A stretch of 28,487 nt of DNA from a virus. Position numbers and translations under genes: made by a program. Where the stretch lies: positions 1 to 28,487 of IMG/VR virus record IMGVR_UViG_3300017782_000147; one strand, given 5' to 3'. This document shows, piece after piece, positions 6,941-27,919 of this stretch. A model generated the notes under the pieces. That model was not told the DNA's origin. It did not search any database and saw nothing but the letters and a program-made list of their open reading frames with translations. How positions within the stretch are numbered: position 1 is the stretch's first letter; each line of letters begins with the position of its first letter.

Positions 6941-7197
6941 GCAAACTTCTTTTGTATCTTTTTATAAATGTAATATATTGAGAGTCCATAAGTTGCTAAT
7001 ACTGTCATAGTGAAGCCAATGTATATTAGCTCTATAGGTGTAAGGAAGAGAACTTGCCATACAAAGTCAGATGCGGCCTCTACGTCACCTAATGCCTCAG
7101 GCATAACCATATCATTCTCTTCAAAGATTTCTAAAATCTCATCGTATTCTAGTTCAGTGAGACATTCGTAATACTCAGGTGGGCATTCTACTTTCAT
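6937..7197 (-). CDS. Small membrane protein between curlin-like protein and cyclase
   Basis: This 86-residue protein has an acidic N-terminal half (YYECLTELEYDEILEIFEEND), one clear TM helix near residues 53-76 (PIELIYIGFTMTVLATYGLSI) and a short basic tail KKIQKKF. It overlaps the preceding and following genes by 4 bp each, so it is translated with the curlin-like gene and the cyclase. I do not recognise the family. Its position suggests a partner of the CHASE2 cyclase, but that is inference. Confidence 0.7.
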   Translation of the reverse strand: MKVECPPEYYECLTELEYDEILEIFEENDMVMPEALGDVEAASDFVWQVLFLTPIELIYIGFTMTVLATYGLSIYYIYKKIQKKFA

Positions 7198-7919
7198 TCT
7201 TGAGTTACTGATGAACTACACCCACCAACTGTCATACAATCGACTGATATAGTATAAGACTGAGTACCACTAGTACCAAATTGTAGCAATGTTAAATCTG
7301 TTCCATATAAACCATCAAGAGTTATATTTGCAGTGTGATTTGCACTAGTTCCTTTCTGACGGACATACACATCATTGTTATCATTGTAGAGTGTTAGGTT
7401 TGCAGTTTTCGGTCCATTGCCTTGTTGCTTAATTATGACTTTATTATAGTCACCAGCTACATGCAAATCAAAGTTATGACCGTCCCATGCGTTATGTTGG
7501 TTTGTTTGTTGAACAGCTAAATCGTTATAGTCACCGTACATTGTGATGTCTATCTCGTGACCGCCGCCTTCACTACCATCATGACTCCAATCTAAATCAG
7601 TTTCTGAATCCAAGGTATTCCAAACAATACCCTGTCCTAATTTCATTTGATTACCTGTACCACTCACTTCATCAAATGTAATTTTGTTGGGATAGGTATA
7701 TGTGGAATGAGAGTTGTATTGAACCAAATACATATCTAAACTAGAAGCAGTAATATATGAATTACTATCTAGCATTTTAATTTCATTACTATAACCAATT
7801 TGGTCGATGCCTAGCTGTAGGTTATCGCCTGACTGAGTCATAGCTATGCTGTTGTCTGCTTTTGCATCATATGAGATGCACATAACAAGCATAATGAATG
7901 CTGTTATATATAAAGGCAT
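7194..7919 (-). CDS. Secreted curlin-repeat-like protein (second copy)
   Basis: From Met at 7919 the protein is 241 residues long with a signal peptide (PLYITAFIMLVMCISYDAKA). Degenerate curlin-type repeats follow, spaced as Q.G..N......Q.G..N: MTQSGDNLQLGIDQIGYSN, then blocks with GDYNDLAVQQ, GDYNKVIIKQQG and DNNDVYVRQKG. In E. coli CsgA/CsgB such Gln/Asn ladders form amyloid fibres exported through CsgG. The C-terminus has two Cys (VDCMTVGGCSS). The frame extends upstream to 7967 but that overlaps the IscA-like gene; 7919 leaves a 16-nt gap. The ending resembles that of the other curlin-like gene (9782-10516), suggesting paralogues. Confidence 0.7.
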   Translation of the reverse strand: MPLYITAFIMLVMCISYDAKADNSIAMTQSGDNLQLGIDQIGYSNEIKMLDSNSYITASSLDMYLVQYNSHSTYTYPNKITFDEVSGTGNQMKLGQGIVWNTLDSETDLDWSHDGSEGGGHEIDITMYGDYNDLAVQQTNQHNAWDGHNFDLHVAGDYNKVIIKQQGNGPKTANLTLYNDNNDVYVRQKGTSANHTANITLDGLYGTDLTLLQFGTSGTQSYTISVDCMTVGGCSSSVTQE

Positions 7920-7935
7920 AAAGTTTTTATCAAAA

Positions 7936-8259
7936 TTACTCAAAATTAACACTTGCTCCGCACCCACAAGATGCTACTTCCTGAGGATTAATTATTCTAA
8001 CGTTTCTATTTATACCATCTTCCACAACATCAACAGTTGATCCTTTTATCTTAGGATAAGATAGTTTATCTATTGCTACTTTAAATGTACCGAAATCTTC
8101 TTTATAATCATCTTCTGTAATTATATTATCCCATTTAATCTCATATTCGAATCCTGTACATCCAGCTGGTTTAAGTCCAATCCGTATAGTTGGTGTCGGC
8201 ATTCTAAGCTCATCAATGTATTTGAGAGCATTATTAGTAAAATCTATATCTGCTTTCAT
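7936..8259 (-). CDS. iscA: IscA/HesB-type Fe-S cluster carrier
   Basis: This 107-residue A-type carrier receives Fe-S clusters from the scaffold and passes them to apoproteins. The three cluster ligands are present: Cys34 in PAGCTGFEY, and Cys98 and Cys100 in the C-terminal SCGCGASVNF. The length is normal for the family. Its ATG overlaps the stop of the IscU-like gene by 4 bp (ATGA), so the two form a coupled pair. The subtype (IscA, ErpA or SufA) cannot be decided here. Confidence 0.9.
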   Translation of the reverse strand: MKADIDFTNNALKYIDELRMPTPTIRIGLKPAGCTGFEYEIKWDNIITEDDYKEDFGTFKVAIDKLSYPKIKGSTVDVVEDGINRNVRIINPQEVASCGCGASVNFE

Positions 8260-8684
8260 GATGGAGGATTGTTATGCTTACGTTTTGCCTGCTTTGTGTC
8301 CCAGTCAGTAAGAGCTTTCTTAATAGAGTCTTCTGCAAGGACAGAGCAATGTAATTTAATAGGAGGTAGGTCTAATGCTTCAGCAATGTCCTTGTCCTTA
8401 ATCTCTAATGCTTCGGTCATTGTAAGACCTTTTAGCATCTCAACGAACATAGTAGATGAAGCAATAGCACTCCCACATCCATATGTTTTAAACTTGACGT
8501 CTTCTATAACATCAGTATCTGGGTTAACTTTAAGATCTAGCTTCATAACATCGCCGCAAGCAGGTGCTCCTGCCATTCCGGTTGCTACGTTAGGGTCTTT
8601 AGGATCAAATCTGCCTACACCATGAGCTGCAGGATTGTTTAAAACCTCTTCGAATCTTTTTACTACTTTATCTGAATATGCCAT
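8256..8684 (-). CDS. iscU: IscU/NifU-type Fe-S cluster scaffold
   Basis: This 142-residue scaffold protein assembles nascent Fe-S clusters. All scaffold residues are visible: Cys43 and Asp45 (GAPACGDVMKL), Cys70 (YGCGSAIASS) and His112-Cys113 (LHCSVLAED). The HscA-binding motif LPPIK precedes the last Cys (LPPVK in E. coli IscU). No cysteine desulfurase, ferredoxin or chaperone gene is in the window, so it probably uses host IscS. It precedes the IscA-like gene and lies between the FecR gene and the second curlin-like gene. Confidence 0.93.
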   Translation of the reverse strand: MAYSDKVVKRFEEVLNNPAAHGVGRFDPKDPNVATGMAGAPACGDVMKLDLKVNPDTDVIEDVKFKTYGCGSAIASSTMFVEMLKGLTMTEALEIKDKDIAEALDLPPIKLHCSVLAEDSIKKALTDWDTKQAKRKHNNPPS

Positions 8685-8685
8685 G

Positions 8686-9831
8686 TTATCTTTGCCTGAT
8701 TACTATTTCTATTCCAGAACCATTACCAAAGTTGATAACACCTTGATAGGAGTCTACCGTTGTGTCGATGAAACCAGAATTACCTGCGGCTATCTGTATA
8801 TTTATAGTACCATTAACGCTTCTAAAGAAAACTAAATCACCATCACGTTCAAATATATTATACTGGCTATCAGGATTTAATCCTACTTTAGCACCTTTAA
8901 GTATAAATGAGCCTGTCTTAGATCCTTCTGCATTCTCATCATCAAGAGATACTAATGTCTTGTCTAACTCATCTAAGCCTTCTAAAAGATCTTTTAAGAA
9001 ATCAACTTCAAGCATATCTATATCTAGTTCAGTAAATTCTAATTCACCATTATCAGCTAGAGCATCTTGTTCTAGCTCATTAAATTCGAGGAAATCAACA
9101 TCAAGTATACCACTATCAGCATCAAGATCATTTTGAACTGACTCTTCGATCTGTGTCTGTATCTCTTCCGGTGGATTAACAATAAACATATTATCAATCA
9201 TAGAAGGTGTAACGCCTTGTAATGTTACAGTTGATTCTGGTATAGAGTTATATGATGCTATAGCTATGGCCTGATAAGCTTCAGTTAATGTTATTGAGCC
9301 AGCATCGTTTGTTATAATAATCTCTCCTGATGAGTCACCATTTTCATCTGGTAGTAGAATAATTAAACTTCTACCTATCTCATCAACAGAGGTTGTAAAA
9401 TCTGTACCACGAATACCAATCGTAGCTGTTGGTGTGCGAATATCTATATTTGCTTTATTAACCATAGCAAGTTTACCAGAAGCAAACCTCGCTGTACCGA
9501 GAGCAAATCTCATAGACATTTTTGATTTGGATGGATCGGGATCGTATATTACTTCATCAATATATACTTTGGTGTGCTCAGTTAAAGCTAATTCAGCCTT
9601 ATCTAAAAACTCAATCAGCATACGTCCATTAGCTGTTTGAGCTGTATCATATAAACTTATATTAAAACCAACATCAGTTGTTAATTGCTCATTATTACGA
9701 ACAATAGCTCCAATACCAGTTGATTCAACTATATCGCCAATGGAGTCAGCAAAACCGACTCCACTGATGAATAATAATATGCTAAGAGTCGTTAGCTGAG
9801 TCTTTTTGATTGATTTGAATAACTGCATCAT
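8686..9831 (-). CDS. Secreted FecR-domain protein
   Basis: An exported protein of about 380 residues. The N-terminal signal is basic then hydrophobic (KSIKKTQLTTLSILLFISGVGFA). A FecR-type beta domain follows (about 35-160) with LALTEHTKVYIDE and IDIRTPTATIGIRGTDF, the most conserved FecR stretch. The middle is acidic (FLEFNELEQDALADNGELEF, then LLEGLDELDK), and a small C-terminal beta region ends in FGNGSGIEIVIRQR. FecR domains act in periplasmic signalling or surface binding, and here it could feed the CHASE2 cyclase. The frame opens at 9843; nested Met codons at 9831 and 9828 fit the signal peptide equally well. It overlaps the upstream curlin-like gene by about 50 bp. Confidence 0.85.
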   Translation of the reverse strand: MMQLFKSIKKTQLTTLSILLFISGVGFADSIGDIVESTGIGAIVRNNEQLTTDVGFNISLYDTAQTANGRMLIEFLDKAELALTEHTKVYIDEVIYDPDPSKSKMSMRFALGTARFASGKLAMVNKANIDIRTPTATIGIRGTDFTTSVDEIGRSLIILLPDENGDSSGEIIITNDAGSITLTEAYQAIAIASYNSIPESTVTLQGVTPSMIDNMFIVNPPEEIQTQIEESVQNDLDADSGILDVDFLEFNELEQDALADNGELEFTELDIDMLEVDFLKDLLEGLDELDKTLVSLDDENAEGSKTGSFILKGAKVGLNPDSQYNIFERDGDLVFFRSVNGTINIQIAAGNSGFIDTTVDSYQGVINFGNGSGIEIVIRQR

Positions 9832-10516
9832 TTGATGTAACATCTAAATTAATATTGGATATAGGTGATGCGCAAGGTGATCCACCTACACATGTACCCG
9901 TTAATTGATTAATATCAACATTTGCATCATCACCGTCAAGTGTGAAGACGATTTTTGAATAAGCACCGTCTTTTTGCAATGTGTTAATATCATTATCAAT
10001 ACCATCAATATCAAGCGTAAAAGTTAAATCGTCCGCTTCCCAATCTATATCAAAATTATTTCCACTTCCTAATACTGTAACATCTGCGTCGAGTCTTTCT
10101 GCACTGAAAGCATAACCTTGATCTAAATCAAAAATGTTATTATCTCCAGTCACTGAAAAGTCATAATCACTGTATGTACTTGATCCAATGTATCCTATAT
10201 TCCAGTCAATAGAATTACTATCTCCTGTAAGAAGAATATCATAGGTAGAGTTTGTTGCTACAACAGGTCCAAATAATTTGTTCTGGTCTCCTATCATATC
10301 AATATCAAAATCTAAAGTAGCACCAGTAATAGTCATATTACTGCCAGTTCCACCGCTAAAATTGTCAAGCCCGATTTTGTTACCAAAACCTATTTGATCA
10401 ATATATAAAATAAAAGTGTCACCAGTTTGTGTAATCATGATTTCATTATCATCAGATTCAGCGGAAATATGTGTCGACAACATTATAATGAATAATAAAC
10501 TAATTAGTTTTTTCAT
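9782..10516 (-). CDS. Secreted curlin-repeat-like protein (first copy)
   Basis: From the ATG at 10516 the protein has 244 residues with a classic signal peptide (KKLISLLFIIMLSTHISA). MITQTGDTFILYIDQIGFGN follows, the same opening as the other curlin-like gene, then a run of GDxNxxxxD repeats (IGDQNKLF, LTGDSNSIDW, VTGDNNIFDLDQG, GDDANVDINQ) and a final QINQKDS. The repeat spacing and Asn/Gln ladders are curlin-like, but richer in Asp than E. coli CsgA. There are two Cys near the end (TCVGGSPC). The start is chosen for its ribosome-binding site (AAAGGAAAACGG) and overlaps the CsgG stop by 17 bp, arguing for coupled synthesis of channel and substrate. Confidence 0.75.
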   Translation of the reverse strand: MKKLISLLFIIMLSTHISAESDDNEIMITQTGDTFILYIDQIGFGNKIGLDNFSGGTGSNMTITGATLDFDIDMIGDQNKLFGPVVATNSTYDILLTGDSNSIDWNIGYIGSSTYSDYDFSVTGDNNIFDLDQGYAFSAERLDADVTVLGSGNNFDIDWEADDLTFTLDIDGIDNDINTLQKDGAYSKIVFTLDGDDANVDINQLTGTCVGGSPCASPISNINLDVTSNDAVIQINQKDSANDS

Positions 10517-11450
10517 TTCCGTTTTCCTTTGTAGGATGGAGATCATTAGTCCCATCAGCTTGATGAGGGTGACGATGCCCGTCCTTTATAACCCAAAAGC
10601 CTCTATCGTGGCCTTGGTATATTAGTTCCAGCACAGCAGCTTCAATAGCTGTCCGTACCGCGTAAGTCACTGATTCATTATTACCCACACCGTCCTCGAG
10701 TTCTACTAATTGAGTACCTTGCTCTACAAAGCGGAAGACGTCTCCGCCTGCTCCGTAAGACAATATAGTCTTCTTAGTTTGGACATTTAATAATACTTCA
10801 CCCGTTAGAACTGAAACAGCCCTCATGCTTATAGTAACAATATCTTGACGATATCGTCTACTGAAACCGATACCAAGAGTTCGTGCGCCTCGACCTCCGG
10901 ATTTTACATCGGTATCATAACCAATAATTCCACCTTCTATAATTATACCAGCGAATAGAAGTGGATTTAATTCTTTATATGTTTCTTCTTCGTTTGCTTT
11001 TGCAAAGTCTTGCCTGCCGGAACGGACTATCTGTCTCTCTCTAACCAGATTATCTATTCCTGTTCTTTCAACAACTCTAAACCATGAACCACCACCAGCT
11101 GTTTTAAGAGCATCGATAACCATTGTTGTACTGCCTTGTGTTACTGCAGTACTAAATGAAGCAAGATTATCAATTGCTTTTCTCTGACCTGTTAAGTCAT
11201 TAAATTTATAAACAGCAACAACCGGCTTTTCATCTGCAGGTGGTAGTTGTAATAACTCTAAGAACGAAGGTAGTTTGACAACAGTAGGCTGCTCAACGCA
11301 GATATATTTACGAGACATAGCCTTGTTAATACCATTAACTACATCTTTACTAAACCCTTCCTCGTACCTGCAATCTTTTGGATTTTCAGACCATTGAGGA
11401 ACAGATGCGCAACCTGATAAAAGAAGGATAGCCAATAATAAATGTTTCAT
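10500..11450 (-). CDS. csgG: CsgG-like curli secretion channel lipoprotein
   Basis: This 316-residue outer-membrane lipoprotein has a lipobox LLLSGC with the lipidated Cys14. The CsgG core follows: PVVAVYKFNDLTGQRK, then FRVVERTGIDNLVRERQ (E. coli VPLERQGLQNLLNERK), and FAGIIIEGGIIGYDTDVKSGGRGARTLGIG, then YRQDIVTISMRAVSVLTGEVLLNVQTKKTI. These match the membrane beta-hairpin and constriction region of CsgG, which forms a nonameric channel for curlin export. The C-terminal extension after ELIYQGH is His- and Asn-rich and not part of the core. It is preceded by a CsgF-like gene and followed by a curlin-like gene. Confidence 0.93.
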   Translation of the reverse strand: MKHLLLAILLLSGCASVPQWSENPKDCRYEEGFSKDVVNGINKAMSRKYICVEQPTVVKLPSFLELLQLPPADEKPVVAVYKFNDLTGQRKAIDNLASFSTAVTQGSTTMVIDALKTAGGGSWFRVVERTGIDNLVRERQIVRSGRQDFAKANEEETYKELNPLLFAGIIIEGGIIGYDTDVKSGGRGARTLGIGFSRRYRQDIVTISMRAVSVLTGEVLLNVQTKKTILSYGAGGDVFRFVEQGTQLVELEDGVGNNESVTYAVRTAIEAAVLELIYQGHDRGFWVIKDGHRHPHQADGTNDLHPTKENGNEKTN

Positions 11451-11932
11451 TATCCGCCGTCGCTATCTTGTCCGAAATTACCTGTACCGACTGGAATTTC
11501 TATAACTGTTGAAGTTCCATCTGAGTCAACAATTGTCATTCTTATTATTTCTGAGCCATCTTCCATTGTTATTACTTCATATGTAACAACATTACCTTCA
11601 AGTGTAAAAGAACCATATCTAACTGAGCCATCATTACTAAACATACTTTCAACTAACTGTTTAGCCATTTGAGCATATATTCTTGATTCTAAGTTACGTA
11701 TGAATTTAGCCATAACAGTATTATTCTCTTCTCTCTCAGCTGCTTTTCTGGCTGATTCAAGAGCTTCTTCTATGGCTTTCTTTCTAGAAAATTCCTGATT
11801 TTCAATAGTGAGATAGTGGGCACCAGTACCTACTCCACTAAAGGAAGGATTTTTAAATTTATGTACTATATCAGCGTTTACTACGCTTGTTGAGAGCACT
11901 AGGCTCATCATCATTAAACATTTTTTCAGCAT
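11450..11932 (-). CDS. csgF: CsgF-like curli assembly factor
   Basis: This 160-residue exported protein has a signal peptide ending at VVNA and then HKFKNPSFSGVGTGAHYLTIENQ, which follows the CsgF mature start (FQFRNPNFGGNPNNGAFLL in E. coli), the peptide that inserts into the CsgG pore. A long charged helix (EFSRKKAIEEALESARKAAEREE), the segment FIRNLESRIYAQMAKQLVES and a beta-rich end (TYEVITMEDGSEI...STVIEI) correspond to the CsgF helix and C-terminal domain. The last codon overlaps the CsgG start as TAATG, and GAGGT precedes the ATG. Its own start lies within the 3' end of the small membrane gene upstream. Confidence 0.85.
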   Translation of the reverse strand: MLKKCLMMMSLVLSTSVVNADIVHKFKNPSFSGVGTGAHYLTIENQEFSRKKAIEEALESARKAAEREENNTVMAKFIRNLESRIYAQMAKQLVESMFSNDGSVRYGSFTLEGNVVTYEVITMEDGSEIIRMTIVDSDGTSTVIEIPVGTGNFGQDSDGG

Positions 11933-23576: not shown

Positions 23577-24518
23577 CTACGCTGCAGCCTCCAATGCAGT
23601 CTCTAAAGCCTTCAGCTTCAGATTCTTAGATTGGCCATACCAGGCTGATTGCAACCTAACATCGTTGTTAGATCCTCTCTCATGGTCTGTGAAATAAGTC
23701 ACAGCGTTGAAAGCATTCCACCAGCTACCTGGTGCGTAGTTATGACCTGGTGATTGCTCAATCAGATCAAATACACGTTTAGCCGGAGTACTAAGCTCCT
23801 GAGCATGTAACGTCTTACTTCTTTCCTTCTTACTATAAGTAGGGAAGAGGCTATCTAGATAAACAAGTACATCATCCTTCTTGTACTTCTTCTTACCTAA
23901 GTGCTCAGCCATGTCCTTGTAATCATCTAACTTAACGTTAGCAATTCCAAGCATCTCTTTCACGTTGTCAGCATCAAATGCTTTCTTGTGATTCAACTTA
24001 ACTGCATTCTTAGATGAAGAGTTAAGAGATAGCGTAAGCGTATTGTTACATACAACTCGGATAGGTGTAAACCTAACATCAATACTCTGCCCAAACTTAT
24101 GAGGGTTTGAGAAAAGCAGATATGAATCAACTTGATCACCGCCAAACAATTCAAATGAATCTTTGACCTTAGCAAGTACCCATACAATCTTTCCGTCCTG
24201 AAGACTTCCAGCTGTATGCATCTCCATATCACCTTTAAGACAAAAGTCATTAAAGAATTGAAATGCAGTATCGTTCTGGCAAGGCTGCCATTCATCACCA
24301 ACTACATCAAGTACACTCATATCAGAACTTCTGATTAGAGCTTTCTTCTTAGGTACAACAATACCTTCCGAAGTTACAAGAGACTGTTTCTCAACAGCCC
24401 AATCAAGACCTGCAGCAATCTGCATGTCATAAGGAAGTAGATCACTCTCTACTTTAGTACCAAGCCCATGCCAGGGAAGTTGTCCCGCGTAAGCCATCGT
24501 TTCTACATTATGTGCCAT
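23577..24518 (-). CDS. DUF932/TIGR03299 phage-plasmid protein
   Basis: This 313-residue protein has the DUF932 pattern: AHNVETMAYAGQLPWHGLG start, LDWAVEKQSLVT, VPKKKALIRSSDMSVLDVVGDEWQPCQNDTAFQFF, FTPIRVVCNNTLTLSL and the C-terminal NYAPGSWWNAFNAVTYFTDH. These proteins are common in phages and plasmids; the biochemical role is unknown. It forms a monocistronic unit with several promoters upstream (24557-24758), a strong ribosome-binding site (TAGGAGGA) and its own terminator. Confidence 0.9.
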   Translation of the reverse strand: MAHNVETMAYAGQLPWHGLGTKVESDLLPYDMQIAAGLDWAVEKQSLVTSEGIVVPKKKALIRSSDMSVLDVVGDEWQPCQNDTAFQFFNDFCLKGDMEMHTAGSLQDGKIVWVLAKVKDSFELFGGDQVDSYLLFSNPHKFGQSIDVRFTPIRVVCNNTLTLSLNSSSKNAVKLNHKKAFDADNVKEMLGIANVKLDDYKDMAEHLGKKKYKKDDVLVYLDSLFPTYSKKERSKTLHAQELSTPAKRVFDLIEQSPGHNYAPGSWWNAFNAVTYFTDHERGSNNDVRLQSAWYGQSKNLKLKALETALEAAA

Positions 24519-25913: not shown

Positions 25914-25942
25914 TTGACCTAGGTCGCAATCGCGCTTACAAT
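25914..25942 (+). promoter_or_regulatory. Strong promoter of the large ncRNA
   Basis: TTGACC, 17 bp, TACAAT: near-consensus sigma70. The palindrome GACCTAGGTC overlaps the -35 and spacer (25916-25925). Transcription should start near 25949. Confidence 0.85.
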
Positions 25943-25948
25943 ATGGTT

Positions 25949-26523
25949 AACTTAGCAGGGGCTATATGAACGTCGCGCGCTGAAGAACCTACCTAGGTAG
26001 AGAAGAGCTGAAATGCTCGATTGAACTAGGATGGTGGTGGAAGCGCTTAATGGTGATACCACGACTGGGACCTCGTAGTATGGACGTAGGCTTAATCAAC
26101 CTATTCACGTACGTAGAGATTTCATCCAGCTAAGCAGCAATCTGTGAGGATTGTAATTGGAACACTGAACCGTGTCAAACCGACTTAATGGAGAGATGAT
26201 GCCGCGGTAGAGTCAGGCGGAGGCGATCTTAATGATACACCTCATGCAGCCGAGTCATAAAAAAGTCAGGCTTGCTGACCGTACAATTACATTCCAAGAA
26301 CGTCAGGTTGTTGGCCCCACCTTTTTCAGAGCAGCTTGATCCTCTTAGCGGTCGACCAAGTCAAGCTCGAAACTGGACTGCAAACGTGAGCGTTGCTTAG
26401 TAGGTGATACGAGAACTATAGATAACTCGAGTACCCCTACCTGCGCGAGGAACAGTATCCGGTATTGCTCTAGCGAGTGATAGAAATCGCCCCTAAGGTT
26501 AAAAGCGTTAGGGGCACTTTTTT
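25949..26523 (+). ncRNA. Large structured non-coding RNA, about 575 nt, family unassigned
   Basis: This stretch has no plausible ORF, is visibly less AT-rich than its surroundings, and is bounded by a near-consensus promoter and a strong terminator. Local hairpins: 26034-26062, 26086-26104, 26138-26153 (CAATC/GATTG), 26162-26175 (ACAC/GTGT), 26265-26279 (GTCAG/CTGAC), 26333-26367 (7-bp AGCTTGA/TCAAGCT), 26380-26396 and 26400-26440. Long-range candidates are 25973-25978 TCGCGC with 26443-26448 GCGCGA, and 25957-25962 AGGGGC with 26489-26494 GCCCCT. CTTAAT recurs at 26046, 26091, 26184 and 26228. The size is close to ROOL-type and below GOLLD-type phage RNAs, but no conserved element of either was identified. 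Confidence 0.8.
26489..26523 (+). terminator. Intrinsic terminator of the large ncRNA
   Basis: GCCCCTAA/TTAGGGGC, 8-bp stem with an 11-nt loop, followed by ACTTTTTT. The left arm could also pair with AGGGGC at 25957-25962 near the RNA 5' end. Confidence 0.92.
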
Positions 26524-26537
26524 ATTTGAAAAAACAG

Positions 26538-26566
26538 TTGATTTTTCTCGGGGCTGAATATAAAAT
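26538..26566 (+). promoter_or_regulatory. TAAAAT-type promoter (+), antisense direction
   Basis: TTGATT, 17 bp, TAAAAT, just past the ncRNA terminator. It points into the 3' ends of two minus-strand genes; no credible plus-strand gene follows until 27134. Confidence 0.6.
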
Positions 26567-26618
26567 TGCACATCTTTTTGCTAAAAGAGCCGCAAATTGC
26601 TCCGAATAAGAATAAGTC

Positions 26619-26696
26619 TTATTCAGCTTTTGTGAGAAGAACAGCGATCACTACAATCGCTGTTAACAGTCCTAGCGTCACTAGAACGCTATCCAT
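26619..26696 (-). CDS. Micro membrane protein (25 aa)
   Basis: The ORF reads DSVLVTLGLLTAIVVIAVLL and ends TKAEstop, one TM helix. Its ATG overlaps the stop of the 64-aa gene (ATGGATAG). A weak hairpin with TTTT (GAGC/GCTC near 26587-26602) follows. Confidence 0.55.
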   Translation of the reverse strand: MDSVLVTLGLLTAIVVIAVLLTKAE

Positions 26697-27519: not shown

Positions 27520-27548
27520 TTGATTTTTTATTCATTTGCATATAAAAT
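27520..27548 (+). promoter_or_regulatory. TAAAAT-type promoter for 27624 gene
   Basis: TTGATT, 17 bp, TAAAAT. A 9-bp perfect inverted repeat, AAAACTTTT-AA-AAAAGTTTT (27551-27570), lies at the expected transcription start. Confidence 0.75.
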
Positions 27549-27840: not shown

Positions 27841-27869
27841 TTGATTTTTAATCCCTTTGCATATAAAAT
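27841..27869 (+). promoter_or_regulatory. TAAAAT-type promoter, first of tandem pair
   Basis: TTGATT, 17 bp, TAAAAT. It is part of a direct repeat with period 50 bp (27839-27880 and 27889-27930 are similar). Confidence 0.75.
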
Positions 27870-27890: not shown

Positions 27891-27919
27891 TTGATTTTTA
27901 ACCTCTTATCATATAAAAT
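27891..27919 (+). promoter_or_regulatory. TAAAAT-type promoter, second of tandem pair
   Basis: TTGATT, 17 bp, TAAAAT, exactly 50 bp after the first. Confidence 0.75.

Follow-up and report, generated by a model that had tools for sequence, protein, structure and literature searches.

Large ornate RNAs are rare and their functions unsolved, and the known phage examples are few. OLE is a bacterial protein-binding RNA, found mostly in Bacillota. GOLLD forms a homo-oligomeric cage of 14 copies, and ROOL forms an octameric cage with a conserved J6/8-L8 kissing contact. But how can contacts between RNA copies be read from a sequence? A cryo-EM study of GOLLD, ROOL and OLE describes loops in which one palindrome is replaced by another (GGCC by GAUC or AGCU; GC by CG), and such palindrome-to-palindrome switches were taken as evidence of symmetric kissing loops in OLE L9.3 and GOLLD L21a (PMC12286853). 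Structured RNAs have also been reported in T4-like marine phages: riboswitch-like leaders, an sRNA and a tmRNA. A glnA-type riboswitch is present in phage Melnitz as well (PMC9004378). A search of open-licence PMC papers brought up no description of an RNA in T4-like marine phages such as the one presented here.

The RNA gene and its setting

The window, by which we mean the whole stretch of DNA analysed, is a complete virus record of 28,487 bases from a T4-like marine phage, possibly a fragment of a larger genome. Its gp32 is nearest to those of Prochlorococcus and Synechococcus phages (~56%), and its DUF932 protein (gene at 23577-24518) to that of Methylophilales phage Melnitz (55%). The RNA locus lies at the right end, among small genes. 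Elsewhere the record encodes a fusion of a CHASE2 domain with an adenylate/guanylate cyclase catalytic domain (Pfam PF05226, PF00211; 5123-6940, minus strand) and, near it, a FecR-domain protein (8686-9843), which are unusual signalling genes for a phage. A curli-related set, as described for phage Melnitz, occupies 7194-11932 of the minus strand, with CsgG (10500-11450), CsgF (11450-11932) and a curlin-repeat-like protein (7194-7967; 9782-10555 looks alike by eye); NifU_N and Fe-S biosynthesis proteins sit within this stretch.

Is the locus truly non-coding? The first-pass annotation, made from the letters of the window, had proposed a large structured non-coding RNA at 25949-26523, with a promoter and terminator of its own, less AT-rich than its flanks and devoid of a plausible ORF. 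Its limits proved right within a base or two (25950-26523; Table 1), and the other features were borne out too. GC content is 48.1% within the RNA vs 35.9% and 38.0% in the flanks. The longest ORF has 42 amino acids and is not conserved; the best one in homologue L003 has 35, and that in L002 lies on another strand and in another frame. Gap lengths in the alignment are in most cases not divisible by three, and across the RNA homologues compared no ORF or protein is conserved.

The predicted promoter is the TTGACC-17-TACAAT element named in the annotation, and the predicted start of the RNA coincides with a conserved ACUUAG. L003 and L146 retain the -10 hexamer TACAAT, and the spacing to ACUUAG is similar in all members. 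In L108 the promoter carries TGCTATAAT and is of the extended -10 type, with the same ACUUAG start. At the other end, the GC-rich stem noted in the first reading is the hairpin GCCCCUAA...UUAGGGGC (26489-26515), followed by the T run. L108 and L146 retain this hairpin with the re-paired stem GGCAGG/CCUGCC around GGUUAAAAGC or GGUGAAAAGU, lack the T run and have a separate GCAA-looped terminator ~50 nt further downstream; the hairpin is therefore part of the RNA, doubling as terminator in the window phage. Its loop GGUUAAAAGC is nearly constant among members. The predicted transcript ends at its own terminator, with no gene downstream within it. Given the conserved promoter-like element and 3' hairpin, the RNA looks like its own transcription unit, and positions 25950-26523 of the plus strand are a free-standing non-coding RNA gene whose transcription is predicted.

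Table 1. Features of the RNA locus, in window positions; bases are those of the window unless a homologue is named.
Feature	Position	Strand	Sequence and remarks
RNA gene	25950-26523	+	~574 nt, from conserved ACUUAG to end of T run; has homologues, no conserved ORF
Promoter, sigma-70 type (predicted)	25914-25942	+	TTGACC-17-TACAAT; TTGACC begins at 25914, TACAAT ends at 25942; score 10/12
5' domain	25950-26321	+	~370 nt; absent from L108
Helix H2, 5' arm	25958-25962	+	GGGGC; pairs with 26314-26318; closes 5' domain; no covariation within arm
Helix H2, 3' arm	26314-26318	+	GCCCC; GGGGCC/GGCCCC in L146
Helix H3, 5' arm	25966-25970	+	AUGAA; pairs with 26121-26125; 2/5 pairs changed on both sides in three sequences
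Candidate contact	26129-26134	+	GCUAAG; invariant in four long RNAs
Helix H7, 5' arm	26135-26143	+	CAGCAAUCU; long-range, pairs with 26305-26313; 5/9 pairs changed on both sides
Helix H7, 3' arm	26305-26313	+	AGGUUGUUG; different bases in L146
Helix H8, 5' arm	26152-26159	+	UGUAAUUG; pairs with 26284-26291; 5/8 pairs changed on both sides
Helix H11, 5' arm	26212-26216	+	GUCAG; pairs with 26275-26279; closes junction with two hairpins
Hairpin H10	26220-26243	+	GAGG + CGAUCUUAAUGAUACA + CCUC; stem CGAUGC/GCAUUG in L146
Hairpin H12	26251-26274	+	CGAGUC/GGCUUG; AGCUCA/UGAGCU in L146
3' domain	26322-26515	+	~195 nt; alone in L108; covariance model R1 covers up to 26487
Helix Pa with inner hairpin Pc	26325-26372	+	Pa 26325-26332/26365-26372; Pc 26335-26341/26354-26360, loop with UUAGCG
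Helix Pb	26373-26462	+	CUGGA-CUG (26373-26380)/CAG-UA-UCCGG (26453-26462); closes 3' domain
Hairpin Pd	26410-26429	+	12-nt loop AACUAUAGAUAA (26414-26425)
Hairpin Pe	26463-26482	+	UAUUGCU-CUAGCG-AGUGAUA; paired in 5/5, 2 pairs changed on both sides
3' hairpin and T run	26489-26523	+	GCCCCUAA-GGUUAAAAGC-GUUAGGGGC + T run; terminator in window
TTGATT...TATAAAAT elements	26538-26566, 27520-27548, 27841-27869, 27891-27919		

The promoter of the RNA is unlike four near-identical promoter-like elements in its neighbourhood, TTGATT-TATAAAAT with a spacer of N15 (given also as 17). Their chance expectation is 0.02, L003 carries five of them, and they are likely an early promoter class of the window phage. 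Some lead directly into a hairpin with which the predicted transcript would begin. Directly 3' of the RNA terminator a promoter-like element leads into a short stretch (26566-26640) in which the same strand carries the inverted repeat GAATAAG-AATAAGT-CTTATTC but no obvious gene; this stretch is possibly another small RNA.

Homologues and divergence

Homologues of the RNA occur in four other viral contigs, two of which (L003, L002) were found by a scan for the DUF932 neighbour and two (L146, L108) by motif scans. L003 and L002 carry the RNA at the same place as the window. L146 has a diverged long RNA that scores in the profile over its full length and whose 3' domain is 66-71% identical to those of the long forms; L108 is a natural short form of ~210 nt. 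Neighbouring genes and orientation differ in L108 and L146. Among the window, L003 and L002 the RNA is 76-78% identical, vs 93-95% for DUF932 gene DNA, so base pairs are kept despite rapid change. Such divergence relative to the DUF932 gene is unusually fast for a structured RNA.

How widespread is the RNA? A blastn search of 50,697 phage records with four queries returned only chance matches of 27-31 bases. The covariance model R1 found no further member in 51 whole records, nearly all with the DUF932 marker, and none in 398 genomes of one phylum, an empty result that says little; its matches to L055 (E 4.1) and Melnitz (E 0.88) were dismissed as chance. When short conserved motifs were matched exactly against IMG/VR, profile search showed most hits to be chance, and the single match of pattern TGATANNAGAACTATAGATAAC in bacterial genomes, L172, is unrelated. 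Downstream of the RNA, L108 (10228-10283) and L146 (45-95, minus strand) share AUUACCUCCUUAUUAG. It contains ACCUCCUUA, the anti-Shine-Dalgarno sequence of 16S rRNA, which was given no weight because its complement can be read as an ordinary ribosome site plus ATG; the frame that follows has only 20 codons in L108 and 2 in L146.

A two-domain fold

The sequences support a conserved fold of two domains, an optional 5' domain and a conserved 3' domain. L108, in which the 3' domain occurs without the 5' domain, shows the RNA to be modular. A fold of 42 pairs, derived by hand for the 3' domain, was tested on a MAFFT alignment of the five sequences. In it 90.4% of cells are paired, and 14 of the 42 pairs (21 cells) have changed on both sides; sliding the partner by 1-3 columns leaves 0-2 such pairs, and none of 500 shuffles reaches the observed value. 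Changes on both sides affect three of the eight pairs of Pa and five of the seven of Pc. Pb is paired in all sequences, with two pairs changed on both sides and four pair types at one; in L146 and L108 it reads CAGGA-CAG/CUG-GA-UCCUG. One place in the 3' domain holds alternative arms: the window has no arm there, L003 and L108 have a UUCG hairpin, and L002 and L146 have a longer arm. The arm type does not track how the flanking sequences are related, and this suggests that modules have been exchanged.

The full-length RNA of the window, L003 and L002 has both-side changes in 21 of 108 pairs (shuffle mean 8.0; slid 0-3), part of this structure being taken from the same three-member alignment (RNAalifold). 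L146 is the better test of the fold because it was not used to derive the 5' domain structure. Its arms pair at H2, H3, H7, H8, H10, H11 and H12, with bases that differ at all but H2; as these arms were picked by eye, the result is support for the 5' fold and not a blind test. H3, for example, reads AAGGA/UCCUU in L003 and ACUAUUAC/GUAGUAGGU in L146, and the long-range helix H8 is GAAUCGA/UCGAUUC in L146. The 16-nt middle of H10, CGAUCUUAAUGAUACA, does not vary among the four long RNAs, while the stem that bears it does. GCUAAG is complementary to the 5'-end CUUAG(C) (25951) and to the loop of hairpin Pc (26344), a candidate pseudoknot or domain-domain contact that shows no covariation.

Is the fold also visible in folding energies? 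Minimum-free-energy z-scores are -1.42 for the window RNA and 0.59 and -1.54 for two homologues, not significant as proof of structure, so it is covariation that carries the case. The first-pass annotation had read many local stems and two long-range pairings by eye. Comparison of the homologues backs the stems, which energy alone would not show, and at least GGGGC/GCCCC (25958/26314) and 26135-26143/26305-26313 answer to the long-range pairings. With no Rfam match, abundant compensatory changes and no conserved protein, its call of a large structured non-coding RNA with its own promoter and terminator is upheld.

A palindromic loop and possible self-association

What could such an RNA do? A hint comes from the loop of hairpin Pd, which reads AA-CUAUAG-AUAA in four members and AA-CGUACG-AUAA in L146. 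The two hexamers differ at four of six bases and both are self-complementary, a single switch among five members with a chance of ~1/64; the RNAs as a whole show no enrichment of six-base palindromes. The hexamer cannot pair with itself inside one loop, so the simplest meaning would be pairing between two RNA copies, and the Pd loop is a candidate symmetric kissing loop of the kind of OLE B3 and GOLLD B8. In the long forms the loop has possible intramolecular partners, namely CUAUA at position 13 of three RNAs and, in L146, CGUAC or GUACG at other sites; the short L108, devoid of the 5' domain, offers the loop no further CUAUA to pair with. The loop region of L108 is almost identical to that of L003, so its conservation there is not independent.

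The odds of self-association are about even. The RNA would be made during infection and work as RNA. Its Pd loops would pair CUAUAG with CUAUAG, or CGUACG with CGUACG, giving a dimer or a larger homo-oligomer, the assembly mode of GOLLD, ROOL and OLE. By analogy, the resulting complex might be a scaffold or a container, binding or sequestering molecules of the host or the phage, or a sink for host factors. Our best explanation, with a probability of roughly 0.5, is a small, hitherto uncatalogued family of large structured RNAs of marine T4-like phages, most likely self-associating through the Pd loop. A bolder extension is offered only tentatively: that phages carry, besides GOLLD and ROOL and independently of them, a third RNA family whose members build RNA-only homo-oligomers via palindromic kissing loops. 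If so, RNA assemblies would have evolved convergently in marine T4-like phages, with the single-domain L108 form as a minimal version.

Alternative explanations

Could the RNA act as a monomer? The same family might comprise trans-acting regulators or protein sponges for host take-over, with binding sites in conserved loops such as UUAGCG, CGAUCUUAAUGAUACA and GGUUAAAAGC and with the palindrome a coincidence or an intramolecular tertiary contact. Loop sequences are indeed conserved on changing stems, the locus lies among tiny genes of the kind phages use early, and the long RNAs contain an intramolecular partner for the Pd loop. However, the RNA has no constant neighbour that could be its target or protein partner, the genes next to it in L108 and L146 being different, and the size is far over that of a normal antisense RNA. 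We consider this rather unlikely, if worth serious attention. That the locus is a drifting intergenic region or gene remains, with a fortuitous promoter and terminator and no functional RNA, is scarcely credible: the low identity of the RNA compared with adjacent coding DNA (~94%) and the unremarkable folding energies would fit drift, but compensatory changes across five sequences contradict it, nor would drift be expected to leave blocks such as the 16-nt CGATCTTAATGATACA unchanged throughout the four long members.

Might the RNA instead be a highly divergent GOLLD, ROOL or other described family, beyond recognition by the Rfam models? A ROOL-like size, the phage location and a candidate symmetric kissing loop would agree with that, as would a conserved 3' and a variable 5' region as in GOLLD (PMC12286853). 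Against it, Rfam 15 gave no match on the window at gathering score, nor on the RNA at E up to 10 with permissive filters. The L003, L002 and L108 loci, searched at E up to 10, yielded 15 weak matches far below gathering scores and at chance level, none of them GOLLD, ROOL, HEARO or OLE. The models of raiA, RNase P and group I/II introns were likewise unmatched, and neither Rfam nor ARAGORN found a tmRNA. Moreover, the RNA is shorter than GOLLD and its core stands alone at ~210 nt in L108. A divergent member of a known family is thus improbable, and of the two options left by the first-pass annotation, a new class or a divergent member, the data favour the new class.

Comparison with known RNA families

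The RNA is long, non-coding and phage-encoded, with a covarying multi-helix fold and a predicted transcription unit of its own, and falls in the descriptive class of 'large ornate phage RNAs'. What does a further family offer? It is a tractable system, since its 3' core is defined, a short form exists in nature and its arms are swappable; the L108 form is small enough for probing, mutagenesis and cryo-EM, and the palindromic-loop prediction makes self-assembly directly testable. Its fast divergence with the fold kept hints at an interaction under changing selection.

The manA, wcaG, glnA and PhotoRC-II motifs are likewise structured RNAs of marine T4-like phages (PMC2864571, PMC9964418), but mostly cis-regulatory leaders, whereas the new RNA ends at its own terminator. 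Its candidate symmetric kissing loop resembles the one with a covarying palindrome in OLE (OLE L9.3, PMC12286853), a dimerisation mode, while there is no sequence or model match with OLE. Like ROOL it is phage-encoded, of the ~580-660 nt size class and complex in fold, with candidate pseudoknots (PMC12286853); unlike ROOL, whose Rfam model it does not match, it has one member that consists of the 3' domain only. Like GOLLD it is a phage-encoded large ornate ncRNA, with an apparent palindrome-to-palindrome covariation in a hairpin loop and with a conserved 3' region next to a variable 5' region (here absent in L108 and diverged in L146), which is a resemblance only. In contrast to GOLLD, it is 574 nt long vs often >800, has a ~200-nt 3' core, leaves the Rfam model unmatched and lies outside any tRNA island; this setting, typical of GOLLD and ROOL, is absent around the RNA, the nearest tRNA being ~4.8 kb away. 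The best reading is a new family, placed loosely among the large ornate phage RNAs, that is analogous and not homologous to GOLLD and ROOL and is probably self-associating.
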